Source: an uncultured Gammaproteobacteria bacterium
Lineage (GTDB): Bacteria; Pseudomonadota; Gammaproteobacteria; Pseudomonadales; Azotimanducaceae
NCBI GenBank assembly: GCA_913050035.1
Contig: CAJXAC010000023.1
Location: 1 to 33,410, forward strand
Direction of reading: 5' to 3'
DNA: 33,410 bases
The notes under the pieces are model-generated. The model searched no databases, had not been told where the DNA came from, and was given only the letters and a program-made list of their open reading frames with translations. The stretch's first letter is position 1, and every line of letters starts with the position of its first letter. A program made the translations under genes and the position numbers. This document shows positions 21,406-27,658 of this stretch, in pieces.

Positions 21406-21948
21406 TTAAAAGCTTGCCCCGGGCTGTCGTAAAAATATCTCTTCTGCTGGCGTTGAAGACCGCCCTAAAGCTGCGTTGCGGTGGGGAAATCGGCCAAATT
21501 TATTGATCACATCAAAATGTCGTTGCGCTGATCGTAGATTGCCGGTTTCTGCTATCGTTGCAAACAATTTAACACTGTTGCGTTGCTGCTCTAATGACTC
21601 CGCGTGCATAAACGGCATGTATAAAAATGCCCTTTTGATCGGCGGCAACGCTTGGTCCAGCCCCAGTTTAATGGTGTTCTCAGCAAGTTTTAGGGCAATG
21701 TTGTCCGATGCATAGGCACTGGCCTGATTGCGGAATAAATTCCGCGAAAATTGATCGAGCACAATAATTTCCGCCAGCCGACCGTCCACATCACTGCGCC
21801 AATGGGCTAAACCACCGCTGCTGGCGGTGCGGTGTGTGGCGCCGAAACGCTGGCGTAGCTTTGTATCGAAGGCTAAATTTTTGCGCCACCACTGGGCTTG
21901 CGAGATTTCTTCAAACCAGAATGTTAGAACCTGTTGGGGCTGGATCAT
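21406..21948 (-). CDS. DUF924 family protein
   Basis: A 180-residue, probably all-helical cytoplasmic protein of the DUF924 family, whose biochemical role is not established. Signatures are VLTFWFEE near the N-terminus, WWRKNLAFDTKLRQRF, IIVLDQFSRNLFR in the middle and KRAFLYMPFMHAESLEQQ. The ATG overlaps the rnfE stop by 4 bp (ATGA), so it is translationally coupled to the rnf operon. Whether it serves the Rnf complex is unknown. Confidence 0.88.
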   Translation of the reverse strand: MIQPQQVLTFWFEEISQAQWWRKNLAFDTKLRQRFGATHRTASSGGLAHWRSDVDGRLAEIIVLDQFSRNLFRNQASAYASDNIALKLAENTIKLGLDQALPPIKRAFLYMPFMHAESLEQQRNSVKLFATIAETGNLRSAQRHFDVINKFGRFPHRNAALGRSSTPAEEIFLRQPGASF

Positions 21949-22619
21949 TTTTCGTAATCAATGGTCTTTGCAGGAACAGCGTTGAGATCACGGGCCGGGG
22001 GTGTAAGGAATTTAGCCAAGCCCTGCACCAAGGCAAAGAGTAGGCCAGCGAGCAAGAAAGCACCGGGTGGGAAAAGAGCCAACGGCAGGGGCGCGGTACT
22101 CGTTAAATCGATCACCCAACTGCTTGCGGCGGGGCCGAACAGTAAGTCCATTTCGCGCAATAACGTGCCATAGCCCAAAATTTCGCGAACGCCGCCCAAT
22201 ATCAGCAAAGCGATAGCAAAACCCACCGCGGTACCCAGAGCGTCGAGAACTGCAGCGCCGACAGGTTGGCGACTGGCAAACGCTTCGGCACGTCCTAGGA
22301 TCATGCAATTGGTAACAATGATTTGTACAAACAACGCTATACGCAGATACAGGGTAAATGCGAACGCCTCTAAAACCATCACTGTGATTGTGGTGAAGGT
22401 GGCAATGATCAGCACAAAACAGGGCAATCTCGCTACGTCAGGTATACGGTGACGCAACAGTGAGATGGTTATATTTGATCCCAATAAGACAAAGCCGCTG
22501 GCCAGCGCTAAGCCGAGCGCGTTAACTACGCTATTGCTCACGGCCAATAGCGGGCATAGGCCCAGCAATTGTGCCCAGGCGGGATTATTTTCCAGCACGC
22601 CGCGATTGAACGTATTCAT
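21945..22619 (-). CDS. rnfE: Rnf electron transport complex, membrane subunit E
   Basis: A 224-residue integral membrane protein with about six hydrophobic helices, homologous to RnfA and NqrD. In the family, RnfA and RnfE sit inverted to each other and share a membrane-embedded iron-sulphur cluster. The matching cysteines are Cys22 (LLGLCPLLA) and Cys105 (VTNCMILG). It overlaps rnfG and the DUF924 gene by 4 bp each (ATGA). Confidence 0.94.
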   Translation of the reverse strand: MNTFNRGVLENNPAWAQLLGLCPLLAVSNSVVNALGLALASGFVLLGSNITISLLRHRIPDVARLPCFVLIIATFTTITVMVLEAFAFTLYLRIALFVQIIVTNCMILGRAEAFASRQPVGAAVLDALGTAVGFAIALLILGGVREILGYGTLLREMDLLFGPAASSWVIDLTSTAPLPLALFPPGAFLLAGLLFALVQGLAKFLTPPARDLNAVPAKTIDYEK

Positions 22620-23194
22620 TGCGCATGCTCCTTGGTGGGTGACAGCTGATCACTACAAAACTGGGTCTGGGCGTCGCTATCCATATATTGGGCAAGGGAA
22701 TCGGCGACACGCTTTAAAGCATTGTGGGTGATTGTTGCGCCGCTCAGTGTGTCAGCCGTCTGCCACTCTGTAAGGGTCCAGTTGTCTCGGTCGGGTAAGT
22801 AGTCGCTTCGCTCATGGTCGATAAAGTCACCGATACCTGGAGTTTCGAGATGGTTTAGAACCCTGAGTTTAATAACGCTTGGTAGATCGCCTTCGAAGGT
22901 TTGCCAGTAGGCTAAGAATTCGATGGGACCGGCATAACCGTTCTCGCTGAGTCGAAGCAGCCACCAATCGGTGCAGGCGCTGAGCGTATCTCCGCGCCAG
23001 GATTCTAGTGTTTTAAGTTCAATGCGTTGTTCGGGCAGCAGTAAACTGTTCATCAACGCCCGCGCTTGCTCCTGACGTTGAGTCTCTATACGCGGCGCGG
23101 TGATTCCATTAACCCATACCAGAGCGGTGCCGCAAAAACCTGCGATGAGCACCAGACTGACGAGGCTGCGCCAGTTCAGCGCGGGGCTAGTCAT
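22616..23194 (-). CDS. rnfG: Rnf electron transport complex, FMN-binding subunit G
   Basis: A 192-residue subunit with one N-terminal membrane helix (about 8-30) and a periplasmic FMN-binding domain. The covalent-FMN motif SGATIT is at 151-156, with Thr154 the expected attachment residue. HLETPGIGD (115-123) matches the conserved HxETPGxGD segment of the family. It overlaps rnfD by 8 bp and rnfE by 4 bp. It is slightly shorter than E. coli RsxG. Confidence 0.94.
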   Translation of the reverse strand: MTSPALNWRSLVSLVLIAGFCGTALVWVNGITAPRIETQRQEQARALMNSLLLPEQRIELKTLESWRGDTLSACTDWWLLRLSENGYAGPIEFLAYWQTFEGDLPSVIKLRVLNHLETPGIGDFIDHERSDYLPDRDNWTLTEWQTADTLSGATITHNALKRVADSLAQYMDSDAQTQFCSDQLSPTKEHAQ

Positions 23195-24119
23195 GGGCGC
23201 TCCGTGGCGGCCGCTGGTGTATTCGATTCAGCAGTGGAGTAGTGCAATTGGCCAATAAAATCGCAAAGGCAATGCCGTCTGGAAGGCTGGCGCCGGTGCG
23301 GATAATGAACAAGATAGCGCCGATCAAACAGCCAAATAGAATTTGATGTCGAGGGTTTGCAGGGTGCGTAACCGGGTCAGTGGCAAAGAAGAATGCGGCA
23401 GCGACGGTGCCGCCAGCAGTCCAGTGGAACCATGGAGACCCGAGACTTTGGGATGATCCTTGGTCGTAGGTCGCCGCGGCGAGCACGCCAACGGTCAACA
23501 ACACCGCGGTGGGTATACGCCAGCTTATGATGCGTCGAAACAGCAGCCATAGACCACCACAAAAAAACAGGCCGGCCGTGATAGTGGCTTGGTGCTGGGC
23601 AACGGCAACGCCGGGCATGAACTCAGCTACAGTGGTGCCGCCGCGATAACGAAAATCGCTCAGTAGAGTAGCTCCGCTGAGGCTGTCGACGCCGACGGTT
23701 GGATAACTCGCCAGCAGTGCCGGAAACGACAACAAAATCACTGCGTAGCCGACCATCGCCGGATTGAATACGTTCTGTCCCAAGCCCCCGTAGGCATGTT
23801 TTGCGAGGCCAATGGCGGCTAGGGCGGCCACGGCCAATACGCTAATTGGTAAGTCCGGTGGCAAACAAACTGCGATCAACCAGGCCGTTAACAGTGTGCT
23901 GCCATCGCCTAGATGGCGATTAAGTTCTCTCGGTAACTGCGCAGGTCGTTGCAGCAGCACTATGCCGACTTCGATGAGCGCACAGAAAATGCTCAAAACT
24001 ATGCCATTGAGCAATACGCCAATGCCGAGGAAGTAAGCCTGAGCGATCAGCCCGGGAACTAATGCCGCCAGAACGGTATACATGATCGTAGACGTGCGGT
24101 TGCCGGCCATCTTTCTCAC
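23187..24119 (-). CDS. rnfD: Rnf electron transport complex, membrane FMN subunit D
   Basis: A roughly 310-residue polytopic membrane protein (about nine or ten helices) homologous to NqrB. YGGLGQNVFNPAMVGY (110-125) is the family hallmark, and the covalent-FMN motif SGAT ends at Thr151. The GTG at 24119 overlaps the rnfB stop (GTGA); ATG 24110 is an alternative. The N-terminus is about 13-16 residues shorter than typical RnfD and lacks the usual Ser-Pro-(Tyr)-His stretch before the first helix. Confidence 0.93.
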   Translation of the reverse strand: MRKMAGNRTSTIMYTVLAALVPGLIAQAYFLGIGVLLNGIVLSIFCALIEVGIVLLQRPAQLPRELNRHLGDGSTLLTAWLIAVCLPPDLPISVLAVAALAAIGLAKHAYGGLGQNVFNPAMVGYAVILLSFPALLASYPTVGVDSLSGATLLSDFRYRGGTTVAEFMPGVAVAQHQATITAGLFFCGGLWLLFRRIISWRIPTAVLLTVGVLAAATYDQGSSQSLGSPWFHWTAGGTVAAAFFFATDPVTHPANPRHQILFGCLIGAILFIIRTGASLPDGIAFAILLANCTTPLLNRIHQRPPRSAHD

Positions 24120-25045
24120 CCGCTTGGCTTTTGCTGTCTTTGTCCGTCGTCGAGTTGAGCCCGGACCCCTCGACGCCGTTGCAGTCGCTGGGCGCGACGC
24201 TGTTGAGCGGACTGGCTGCGCTGCAAAGCGCGCTCCTGGTGATCGATATAGCGCTGTTTAATGGCGACTTTGTGATCGTGATTCTGTCGCTCGTAAGCAT
24301 CGATGCGTTTCGCCTGAGTAAATATCTCAGCCAAATTGATATTACTCGGGCACACGCGGTCACAAAGTCCGCATTCGATACAGCTCTGCAGTCCAAGGTC
24401 GGCTGCCGCAGACCATGCCGCGCCTTGGGCAAGCTTAAATAATTGGTCGGGTACTAAGCCGCGCGGGCAGACGTCTATGCATTGGGCGCAATTGATGCAG
24501 CCGCGGCTACCAGCGGCCAGTTCCGCTGCTTGGGGCGCTGGCGCTTCATGCACACTCACTAGACTGATGCAATCCACAGGACAAGCAGGAATGCATAGCT
24601 CGCAGCCTGTGCAATCCTGAGCAATGACGGTATGCATGAAACCGTTAGCGCCGACGATTGCATCTACCGGGCAGGGCGGTAAACACAGCGCGCAGCCAAT
24701 ACATTTAGTCTCATCGATAACAGCAACCACTGTCTCTGGTTGCGCGGTGGTGAACTGCTCAAGCGGCGCGTCTTGACCCATAAGATCGCGTAGTTGGGTG
24801 ACCAGTTCTGGCCCGCCCGGGGGACACAGGTTGATGGCGGCACCGCTGGCTACAGCCTCGGCATAGGGCATGCAGCCAGGATAGCCACACTGCGCACACT
24901 GGGTTTGCGGCAGCAGTGCATCAATTTCGTTGGGTAAGCTGTGCTCGTCATGGGGCAGTCGCCGGCGCAAAGAGGCGACGGCCAGGGCGAGCGCCAGCAA
25001 GGTAATGACCAATAGTGTTGGGGTTAGCGCGCCAGCAACTATCAT
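24116..25045 (-). CDS. rnfB: RnfB fused to the C-terminal ferredoxin domain of RnfC (no NADH module)
   Basis: A 309-residue protein against about 190 for normal RnfB. Residues 1-165 are RnfB: a membrane anchor (about 4-27), the four-Cys domain with Cys50, 53, 58 and 74, and two ferredoxin motifs, Cys115/118/121/125 and Cys145/148/151/155. After a short Ala/Pro linker (166-180), residues 182-275 match the C-terminal part of RnfC: Cys183/186/189/193 in CINCAQCIDVCP and Cys222/225/228/232 in CIECGLCDRVCPSN, then an Arg/Gln-rich helical tail. The RnfC portion binding NADH and FMN is absent, and no separate rnfC lies between rnfA and nth. ATGA overlap with rnfA and GTGA overlap with rnfD show an intact operon. 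Alternative readings are a deletion-born relic or an assembly deletion. Confidence 0.88.
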   Translation of the reverse strand: MIVAGALTPTLLVITLLALALAVASLRRRLPHDEHSLPNEIDALLPQTQCAQCGYPGCMPYAEAVASGAAINLCPPGGPELVTQLRDLMGQDAPLEQFTTAQPETVVAVIDETKCIGCALCLPPCPVDAIVGANGFMHTVIAQDCTGCELCIPACPVDCISLVSVHEAPAPQAAELAAGSRGCINCAQCIDVCPRGLVPDQLFKLAQGAAWSAAADLGLQSCIECGLCDRVCPSNINLAEIFTQAKRIDAYERQNHDHKVAIKQRYIDHQERALQRSQSAQQRRAQRLQRRRGVRAQLDDGQRQQKPSG

Positions 25046-25620
25046 ACGATCAGGCCCTGGAATCCCATGAAGGCAAGACTCATTAGGCCCGCGCTAATTA
25101 ACGCGATTGGGGTGCCTTTGAAGGCATCGGGCAAATTTGACTGTTGCAGTTGCTCGCGCATGGCGCCAAATAAAACCATGACCAGGGTAAAGCCTGCGGC
25201 GGCTCCAATGGCGTAAAACAACGTTTGCAGCAGTGACAAGTCTTGGCCTATCGCTAATAAACTGACCCCGAGCACTGCACAATTACTGGTTATCAGCGGC
25301 AGGTATACTCCAAGCAGTTGTTGGAGCACTGGGGATGATGCGCGCAAGTACACTTGCACCAGTTGTACGAGTCCTGCGATGACCACGATAAATAGAATAA
25401 TGCGCAGATATTCCAGACCGAGGGGCAGTAACACGCCGTTATATAGAATATGGGTGCTGACCGCGGCCAGACTCAATACGAATGTTGTGGCCAGACCGGT
25501 GGCAAAAGCGGTGTCATAGCTTTTAGTAATGCCCATAAAGGGACAGAGCCCAAGGAACTGCGCGAGCACGAAGTTGTTGACCAATAGGGCCCCGAGCAAT
25601 ATCAGACTTAAATCCGTCAT
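25042..25620 (-). CDS. rnfA: Rnf electron transport complex, membrane subunit A
   Basis: A 192-residue membrane protein with about six helices, paired with RnfE. Cluster cysteines are Cys26 (FLGLCPFMG) and Cys114 (LITSNCAVLG). The length equals that of E. coli RsxA. It starts the rnf genes 31 bp after metG and overlaps rnfB by ATGA at 25042-25045. Confidence 0.96.
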   Translation of the reverse strand: MTDLSLILLGALLVNNFVLAQFLGLCPFMGITKSYDTAFATGLATTFVLSLAAVSTHILYNGVLLPLGLEYLRIILFIVVIAGLVQLVQVYLRASSPVLQQLLGVYLPLITSNCAVLGVSLLAIGQDLSLLQTLFYAIGAAAGFTLVMVLFGAMREQLQQSNLPDAFKGTPIALISAGLMSLAFMGFQGLIV

Positions 25621-25651: not shown

Positions 25652-27658
25652 TTACTTCACCACCATGCCAGGGGTTGCCCCGCTGTCCGGTGATAATAGG
25701 AAAATATCAGCGTCGCCCGGCCCAGCGGCCAGCACCATGCCTTCGGAGACGCCAAAACGCATTTTGCGCGGCGCTAGGTTGGCGACCACTACGGTCAAGC
25801 GGTCAACCAGATCATCCGGGGCGTAGGCGGCCTTGATTCCTGAAAACACTTGGCGCTGGTGGTCGCCGACGTCGAGAACCAGACGCAATAATTTGTCGGC
25901 ACCGTCTACGGGTTCGGCGCTAACAATTCTGGCCACACGTAACTCAATCTTATTGAAATCTTCGATACTGATGGGGGCGTCGGTTTTGCTTACTGTTGCT
26001 TGGGCTTGTTCTGGAGCTTGCGGCTCCGGAGCATCGACCAACTTTTCGACTTGTTTGACTTCCATCCGTTGCAGCATGGCTTTAAATGGATTGATGCGGT
26101 GGCTACCCAAATGCGTCGTTAGGTCTGCCCACTGAAAGGGCTCTACAGCAAGGAATTCCTCCGCGCGGCGCGCCGTATCGGGCAGTATCGGTTTGAGAAA
26201 AATCATTAGTGCTCGAAACATTTCCAGCGCTTGACTGCATACCGGCTGCACATCTGCCTTACGCTCAGCATCTTTGATCATATTCCAAGGTTCGTGGGCA
26301 GCAATATACTGATTCGCCAGATCCGCCAGCGCGGTAATTTCCCGCATAGCCTTGCCGAAATTGCCCCGCTCGAAATGCTCCGCAATGCTGTCTGCTGCAT
26401 TAGTAAATTGTTGCATCAGCGACGGATCATGGAGTTCAGCGCTGAGTTCGCCATCGAAATGTTTGACCAAGAAGCCTGCGGTGCGGCTGGCAATGTTGAT
26501 GACCTTGCCCACCAGATCGGCATTCACGCGCTGGACAAAGTCGTCCAGGTTAATGTCCAGATCATCTGCTGAATCACTGAGTTTGGTGGCGTAATAGTAA
26601 CGCAGATATTCAGGGTTCAGATGTTCTAGATAGCGCTGCGCCAGAATGAAAGTGCCGCGTGATTTAGACATCTTCGTACCGTTAACGGTTACGAAGCCGT
26701 GGGCATGAATGCGGCTTGGGGTGCGAAATCCCGCACCGTCTAGTACCGCAGGCCAAAATAAGGCATGAAAATTCACGATGTCCTTGCCAATGAAGTGGTG
26801 CACCTCGGCGCTGCTGTCTTGCCCCCAGAAACTGTCGAAGTTCAGATCCTCGCGCTGGTCACAGAGATTTTGCAGACTCGCCATATAACCGATAGGCGCG
26901 TCCATCCACACATAAAAATACTTATCCTCGGTTCCGGGGATAGTAAAGCCGAAGTAAGGTGCGTCGCGGGAGATATCCCAGGGTCTTAACTCATCATCAA
27001 GCCATTCACTGAGTTTGTTGGCGATTTCTGGCTGTACGCTCCCAGATCGGGTCCACTCGCGTAGAAAATCTGTGTATTTGCCAAGGTCAAAGAAGTAGTG
27101 CTCGGACTCGCGCAGTTCTGGGGCGGTGCCCGAATAGATTGATTTTGGGTTGCCGAGTTCAGTGGCGTTGTAAGTCGCGCCGCAGCTCTCGCAGTTGTCA
27201 CCGTACTGACCTTCGGCGTTGCATTTGGGGCAGTTGCCGATCACAAAACGATCGGCAAGGAATAGGCCTTTTTCTGCGTCATACAGCTGCTCAACGTTCT
27301 CCGTATAAATCAGCCCCTGTTCTTGCAGCCGCGAAAAAATCAGCTCGGAATAATGGCGGTTTTCCTCGGAGTGGGTGGTGTAATAGTTGTCGTACTCGAC
27401 CAAAAACCCATTGAAGTCTGCCAAGTGTTCCTGACGTACCGCGTCCACGAGTTCGGTAGGAGTGATGCCCTCTTGCTCGGCCTTGATCATCGTCGCGGTG
27501 CCATGGGTGTCATCAGCACAGACATAAACGACCTCATGGCCCTGCATGCGCAGAAAACGCACCCAAATATCGGTTTGGATATGCTCAAGCATATGGCCGA
27601 GATGAATTGGGCCATTGGCATTTGGCAGGGCGCTGGTGACAAAAATTTGGCGTTGCAT
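25652..27658 (-). CDS. metG: methionyl-tRNA synthetase
   Basis: A 668-residue class I synthetase charging tRNA-Met. The HIGH-type motif HLGH is at 19-22 and KMSKS at 329-333. The zinc knuckle has Cys143, 146, 156 and 159. The C-terminal domain (about 565-668, [17 protein letters not shown]) is the Trbp111-like tRNA-binding and dimerisation module found in the long, E. coli type of the enzyme. The gene heads the metG-rnf-DUF924-nth run and diverges from mrp/apbC. Confidence 0.97.

Follow-up and report, generated by a model that had tools for sequence, protein, structure and literature searches.

A headless Rnf variant, apparently evolved more than once, with RnfB fused to an RnfC-type rear domain

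Main

Rnf complexes are named for the ferredoxin:NAD reaction. According to the available parts of three reports (PMC12174285, PMC9588780 and PMC11889175), RnfB lies at the entry of a U-shaped electron path that runs through RnfA/E, RnfG and RnfD, and the dicluster of RnfC lies near its exit; the clusters of RnfB and RnfC are at least 25 Å apart, and the C-terminal helix of RnfC contacts RnfB. RnfA and RnfE supply the cysteines of a [2Fe–2S] cluster, and a threonine carries the covalent FMN, as described in the accessible text of two of them (PMC9588780 and PMC12174285). In one structure, the N-terminal arms of RnfD are buried in RnfC.

Here we analyse a locus that departs from this plan. The window, by which we mean the whole 33,410-nucleotide stretch of DNA under study, comes from an uncultured gammaproteobacterium with a draft genome of 2.6 Mb in 120 contigs (91.67% complete). 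A sequence-only reading of the window had proposed that RnfC was reduced to its electron-wire domain and fused to RnfB. This proposal was borne out by profile searches, by the lack of a detectable head in the genome and by intermediate forms in relatives. Judged from its profiles, the protein consists of RnfB followed by the rear domain of RnfC, standing in place of both subunits in an otherwise complete Rnf that lacks the NADH-binding head. We consider it highly probable that this anatomy and a working complex hold together. In what follows, L denotes a locus, G a genome, f a family and g a genus in our survey.

Anatomy of the fused protein

The fused rnfB–rnfC(tail) gene is an open reading frame of 309 residues at positions 24116–25045 of the minus strand, on which all features below also lie. 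Among NCBIfam profiles, rnfB (TIGR01944) matched residues 17–168 with 191.6 bits against a cut-off of 68.7, and RsxC (NF003454) matched residues 171–293 with 81.6 bits over profile positions 357–479 of 556. The RnfB profile thus ends at residue 168 and the RsxC match starts at 171, which agrees with the junction previously claimed near residues 166–181. When residues 180–309 were searched alone, the best match was RsxC/RnfC at 83.7 bits and the best RnfB model among the matches listed scored 24.3 bits, so that the rear half corresponds to the rear of RnfC, as had been suggested, and is not an ordinary RnfB tail. The long-tailed RsxB model NF005415 (284 positions) covered just the front of the protein. 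In a PDB search, the front matched RnfB of 8ahx (E = 1e-29), and residues 181–285 matched residues 368–466 of its RnfC (8ahx_C; E = 3e-14).

Besides a profile score above the cut-off, the front half contains an N-terminal helix (residues 4–29, positions 24959–25036), a single-cluster Fe–S domain (residues 45–76, positions 24818–24913; PF04060, 47 bits) with Cys 50, 53, 58 and 74, and a dicluster ferredoxin domain (residues 108–162, positions 24560–24724; PF14697, Fer4_21), all of them parts of RnfB. The helix is predicted to cross the membrane, as the RnfB helix does; AlphaFold2 modelled it with mean pLDDT values of 71, 94 and 81 in blocks over residues 1–30. A variable linker that includes the junction (residues 163–181, positions 24503–24559) was delimited from the spacing between the last RnfB and the first RnfC cluster motif. 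It is followed by an RnfC-derived domain for two [4Fe–4S] clusters (residues 182–245, positions 24311–24502), assigned from the NF003454, TIGR01945 and 8ahx_C matches, and by a long RnfC-derived C-terminal helix (residues 238–304, positions 24134–24334), which AlphaFold2 predicts and which the RsxC profile covers to residue 293. A C-terminal dicluster and a basic helical tail, as found in RnfC, are therefore both present, and profile searches of the fused protein detected no RnfC barrel domain, no FMN/NADH domain and no SLBB domain.

The five four-cysteine motifs that had been read on this protein were recovered at C50/53/58/74 (C..C....C(15)C) and, in the form CxxCxxCxxxC, at residues 115–125, 145–155, 183–193 and 222–232. 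Four motifs of the latter form are far from chance: one occurred in 56 of 10,000 shuffles of the protein, and more than one in none of the 10,000. The AlphaFold2 model, built from 17 aligned sequences, had a mean pLDDT of 65. It was weak in the Fe–S parts (approximately residues 100–240) and better in the front, with helix 4–29, and in the C-terminal helix, where pLDDT was 83–96 over residues 251–300 and lower at both ends.

Gene neighbourhood

The gene order on the minus strand is metG, rnfA, the fused gene, rnfD, rnfG, rnfE, a DUF924 gene and nth. This order, together with the open reading frames and profile matches of the window, confirmed the earlier statement that rnfC is missing from the stretch between rnfA and rnfE. 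The names metG (positions 25652–27658, minus strand) and nth are those that we presume for these neighbours from their Pfam classes. The other neighbours scanned in the window are a NUBPL-type iron-transfer NTPase (apbC), a dCTP deaminase (dcd), an AIRS protein and a racemase.

rnfA and rnfD each share 4 nt with the fused gene that lies between them. rnfA (25042–25620, minus) scored 245.8 bits with TIGR01943 (cut-off 229.3) and has the conserved Cys 26 and Cys 114. rnfD (23187–24119, minus) scored 253.4 bits with TIGR01946 (cut-off 207.05), and its translation contains an SGAT flavinylation-type motif, which is also present in a divergent rnfG (22616–23194, minus; TIGR01947, 61.4 bits, below the cut-off of 102, with a match to PF04205). 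rnfE (21945–22619, minus), with conserved Cys 22 and Cys 105, scored 239.8 bits with NF009070 (cut-off 184) and 212 bits with TIGR01948, 1.4 short of the cut-off of 213.4. The gene set rnfA, rnfB, rnfD, rnfG and rnfE of Rnf/Rsx is thus present together, and every member except rnfG scores above at least one cut-off.

All of the window genes scanned beside the operon were ordinary, and none was a candidate partner. No NqrF-like protein was found among the operon proteins scanned, and no cytochrome or added flavin domain among the scanned window proteins. The DUF924 gene (21406–21948) and the end of rnfE share 4 nt; we set this gene aside as a partner because it was matched at the locus in just five close relatives (L032, L033, L034, L037 and L039). 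The loci of relatives were searched with the window genes and Rnf models only. In one fused locus (L038, 9371–12090), three open reading frames of 194, 275 and 400 residues lie between rnfE and nth; by eye these are a putative TetR-type regulator, short-chain dehydrogenase and oxygenase.

Distribution and origin

We surveyed the fused protein at increasing taxonomic distance. Among 37 genomes of the genus, the window's own included, 23 had a single match through both halves, two (G003 and G006) had two match pieces in one frame and one (G031) had a partial match. The remaining 11 had no match, including a genome that is 97% complete (G020), which indicates that some members of the genus do without the fused gene; Rnf may have been lost entirely in some genomes of this genus (g1), such as G020. 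Across 150 genomes of the family, 126 had a match at 1e-12, and a single match spanned both halves in at least 73, three of these with one internal stop. Outside the family but within the order, all 21 genomes examined had RnfB, and in 20 of them the RnfC tail matched separately. Surveys at the strict threshold of E = 1e-52, at which diverged fusions would be missed, returned 12 matches in 390 genomes of the order and 6 in 369 genomes of the class, with the own genome counted in each; one match in each survey (L152 in G351 and L178 in G687, respectively) was a full-RnfC locus and not a fusion. The fused form occurred in genomes of families f15, f44, f47, f139, f156 and f181, and a few fused genomes lay outside the window's family, in other families and orders.

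To sort 84 loci we used two custom HMMs, one for the RnfC front (357 positions) and one for the RnfC tail (118 positions). This yielded 22 loci with full RnfC, 51 RnfB–tail fusions, six with a headless RnfC (no barrel, a remnant of the FMN domain), three with a separate mini-RnfC, one in a single-contig genome with RnfB fused to a truncated RnfC (L219) and one without any of these, counts in which L048 and L198, which share coordinates, are probably one locus taken twice. Truncated heads were seen at L216, L217, L219, L220, L223, L237 and L238. In all classes the tail-HMM match started at position 2–7 and ended at 103–117, except in the fused locus L050, where it ended at 75. The linker between the last RnfB and the first RnfC cluster motif was 24–48 residues long in the 50 of 51 fused loci measured. 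Short rnfC_N matches in L183, L193, L196 and L197 were rejected as alternative-frame translations that overlap the fused gene.

Genus g15 of family f15 contains both states: L228 has a separate RnfB and a full RnfC, and L200 and L202 are fused. The fused proteins are 79–82% identical to L228 over RnfB, lack the first 357 residues of its RnfC (counted in the stop-to-stop frame) and resume at 71% identity from residue 358 of that frame. As read from its genes, this genus shows adjacent rnfB and rnfC reduced in frame. Another genus, g31, contains four of the locus classes. On a tree of the neighbouring genes metG, apbC, dcd and nth, the fused class requires 10 changes, at least six of them forced by supported branches, and an AU test rejected a single clade for the fused form (p = 2.3e-5). 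A tree of rnfA, B, D and E gave the same two counts. The neighbour tree kept 67 and the core tree 76 of the 84 selected loci, the rest having too few genes, and both were quick LG+G4 trees in which single branches need caution. Considering that an excised head is unlikely to regrow, we read this pattern as repeated loss and fusion. The fused form thus seems to have arisen repeatedly, and reacquisition or transfer of the operon could mimic some of this signal.

No NADH head detected

A full-length rnfC elsewhere in the genome would have contradicted the sequence-only reading. None was detected: the sole rnfC match in the own genome (92% complete) was the fused open reading frame itself, which scored 68.5 bits with TIGR01945 against a cut-off of 245.95 and covered positions 361–429 only. 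The same genome had no match to Complex1_51K (PF01512). No rnfC scored above the cut-off in any of 40 genomes of the genus, the own included, and just one did among 46 further genomes with a fused, headless or eroded locus. This is G447, a genome of the fused type, in which a full rnfC of 513 bits lies on another contig (C26:5258–6556), perhaps as part of a second Rnf or as contamination. Of the 40 genomes of the genus, 29 had an nqrF gene above the cut-off, the window's own not among them, so that in most of them NADH could be oxidized by Nqr.

The NADH head might instead be supplied in trans, by an unrelated flavoprotein that uses NAD(P)H, for instance an FNR-type reductase or a different diaphorase, which docks on the dicluster and keeps the complex a ferredoxin:NAD(P) enzyme. 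The dicluster is preserved as if electrons still pass onward, the truncated heads listed above show that intermediates exist, and a candidate FNR-type reductase may exist. However, the scan of window genes flanking the operon showed no such gene, and the lack of a Complex1_51K match in the own genome also speaks against it. We considered nqrF as a gene that might track head loss, and rejected it: it was present in 32 of 48 headless and 12 of 20 head-bearing genomes (Fisher p = 0.78), that is, independently of the head. We regard a head in trans as unlikely.

Selection and cofactor sites

All eight tail cysteines were kept in 51 of 51 fused loci, and the RnfB cysteines in 50–51 of 51. Residue and motif counts for the other subunits cover just the fused loci in which the gene was found. 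There, RnfA kept Cys 26 in 47 of 48 and Cys 114 in 49 of 49; RnfE kept Cys 22 and Cys 105 in 42 of 43 each, and its Cys 67 was not conserved (23 of 43). The motif [ST]GAT was present in all 35 loci with rnfG, which was itself found in 35 of the 51. For RnfD a first motif pattern proved too strict, as 10 of 21 full-RnfC loci passed it; the relaxed pattern [ST]GA[TS] was present in 40 of 46 fused loci (absent in six) versus 15 of 21 full-RnfC loci. The membrane [2Fe–2S] cysteines of RnfA/E and the covalent FMN motifs of RnfD/G are therefore present, and we assign the cluster and FMN sites of described complexes to them.

Within the fused protein, dN/dS of the dicluster came to 0.032 and 0.028 for the two close pairs and 0.108 for a further one, with saturation in two others; metG gave the similar values of 0.044 and 0.033 in close pairs. 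The C-terminal helix evolves fast, with dN/dS of 0.39–0.46 in two close pairs and 0.10–0.28 in three more distant ones. Two arginines, at positions 185 and 243, were each present in 20 of 22 full RnfC proteins versus 14 and 13, respectively, of 51 fused ones, a release that would be expected if both had faced the lost head. The arms of RnfD proved a poor marker of head loss: the median length of the N-terminal arm was 8 in 41 fused loci versus 14.5 in 20 comparison loci, the two ranges overlapped, and several full-RnfC members of the family have short arms too. Low dN/dS in the dicluster and complete retention of the tail cysteines are unlike debris, as is the overlap with both neighbours, and the earlier claim of a maintained gene therefore stands. 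From these comparisons, the fused gene is maintained and under purifying selection.

Some relatives retain parts of the system. L218 (3704–6159, genus g149) has RnfB, a separate mini-RnfC, RnfD and a weak RnfG, with RnfA and RnfE not detected in the locus, and is possibly a one-way relay from cytoplasm to periplasm. L059 (5971–6534) has a lone rnfB-like gene flanked by metG and nth; no further rnf gene was detected there. L224 (3105–5452) has rnfB beside a 574-residue frame that matches parts of RnfD and RnfG, and RnfA, RnfE and RnfC were not found in the locus. We also recorded RseC, which belongs to the Rsx/SoxR-reducing system of E. coli according to the available text of one source (PMC11729352). 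In 68 genomes surveyed, RseC was missing from 33 of 45 fused versus 2 of 15 full-RnfC genomes; scored by the head, it was absent from 35 of 48 head-absent versus 2 of 20 head-present genomes (Fisher p = 2e-6), a strong raw association for which the independent contrasts were too small in number to give proof (six pairs, median p = 0.5). RseC may be tied to the NADH head, which we offer as suggestive only.

These observations bear on the possibility that the complex is decaying, with NADH activity lost first and the fused gene a stage towards loss. The 11 of 37 congeners without a match, the frequent lack of RseC in fused genomes and the relatives with parts only (L059, L224 and L218) would fit such a course. 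It is opposed by the purifying selection and by cysteines conserved across many species, and also by the fact that the same part, dicluster plus helix, was kept each time, with one fused locus, L050, stopping short. Decay is a quite improbable account of the fused gene.

Discussion

Our results describe what is a real and widespread Rnf variant that has apparently evolved repeatedly; its anatomy is firm. Since the electron path starts at RnfB and ends near the RnfC dicluster, a single polypeptide, the fused protein, would carry the wire's two cytoplasmic ends. It is fair to infer that the electron partner at this subunit is something other than NADH. The overall explanation that we think best, at slightly better than even, is a working Rnf pump in which a soluble partner of the ferredoxin or flavodoxin type replaces NAD(H). 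Electrons would run from a soluble carrier to the RnfB clusters, the [2Fe–2S] cluster of RnfA/E, the FMN of RnfG, the FMN and riboflavin of RnfD and the RnfC-type dicluster, or in reverse, and this flow would presumably be coupled to ion movement. As FMN and a nucleotide-binding site are missing, a one-electron carrier would be the simplest partner here: ferredoxin or flavodoxin would dock on the uncovered dicluster in place of NAD(H). With the head gone, the C-terminal helix and the fusion would keep the dicluster seated at RnfD. The likeliest direction, judged by analogy to reverse Rnf, would be the uphill reduction of a low-potential carrier driven by the ion gradient. We give such a carrier-to-carrier mechanism about an even chance. 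The broader proposal, of an NAD-independent Rnf that couples an ion gradient with transfer between two one-electron carriers, uses the membrane potential to boost ferredoxin and evolved several times in Gammaproteobacteria by head excision and fusion of the two cytoplasmic wires, is more tentative and, in our view, less likely than not.

It is also conceivable that no electrons return to the cytoplasm, the dicluster being a brace or an entry point and the exit running via RnfG to a periplasmic or membrane acceptor. Precedents for such an exit include, in the portions available, the multiheme cytochrome of Methanosarcina Rnf, which is expected to feed methanophenazine (PMC12174285), and the single-path NQR/RNF-like clusters (PMC8238504); L218, which keeps RnfB, mini-RnfC, RnfD and a weak RnfG, would also suit it. 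The rnf genes of the window, however, overlap each other, and the scanned proteins include no cytochrome or added flavin domain. We find this exit very doubtful in the window's complex. There is a negligible chance that the locus is an error of assembly or sequencing, or that a second rnfC was overlooked: the window genome is an incomplete draft in many contigs, but the same fusion in many separate records, including L040 and the single-contig genomes G485 and G525, makes an assembly deletion very unlikely, and a full rnfC occurs elsewhere in just the one further genome, G447.

Our full-text literature searches, which left most subscription papers outside their scope, returned no report of an RnfB–RnfC tail fusion in the text they covered; one evolutionary study, in its available part, discarded fused or chimeric Na+-NQR subunit sequences (PMC4014512). 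Scoring Rnf by RnfB alone, as one survey does in its accessible text (PMC8238504), would call fused forms ferredoxin:NAD enzymes. Repeated removal of the NADH module, with a strongly selected Fe–S wire left in place, would detach the core that pumps ions from its NAD partner, and the fused form would offer a minimal Rnf made by nature in which to study how ion movement is driven by electron flow.

Compared with six-subunit Rnf/Rsx (Azotobacter Rnf1, 8ahx; C. tetanomorphum, 7zc6; A. woodii, 9eri), the locus has rnfA, B, D, G and E in the usual order, the residues of the membrane wire and a tail homologous to the Fe–S domain of RnfC, whereas it has no separate RnfC, no FMN/NADH head was found and the RnfC tail sits on RnfB. 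RnfB of A. woodii and clostridia is likewise long, with extra C-terminal clusters, in the part of the source available (PMC12174285); here, by contrast, the added clusters are RnfC-derived by profile, and RnfC is missing. The Rnf of Methanosarcina acetivorans, too, is thought to have an electron partner other than NAD, but unlike the fused form it retains six subunits, RnfC among them, along with an additional multiheme cytochrome, as far as the accessible text describes it (PMC12174285). NQR/RNF-like partial systems are similarly reduced Rnf-type gene sets; in the available account, RnfD/NqrB is fused to an NqrF-type NAD domain and the systems are read as single-path (PMC8238504), whereas here NAD binding is the part that appears lost. 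The operon of the window also differs from Na+-NQR in having no NqrF-type gene. In Na+-NQR, NqrA is likewise an RnfC equivalent without NADH function, according to the accessible parts of two sources (PMC11889175 and PMC4014512), and the two are mirror images: NqrA kept the fold of the head and lost its cofactors, whereas the fused form lost the head and kept the clusters.
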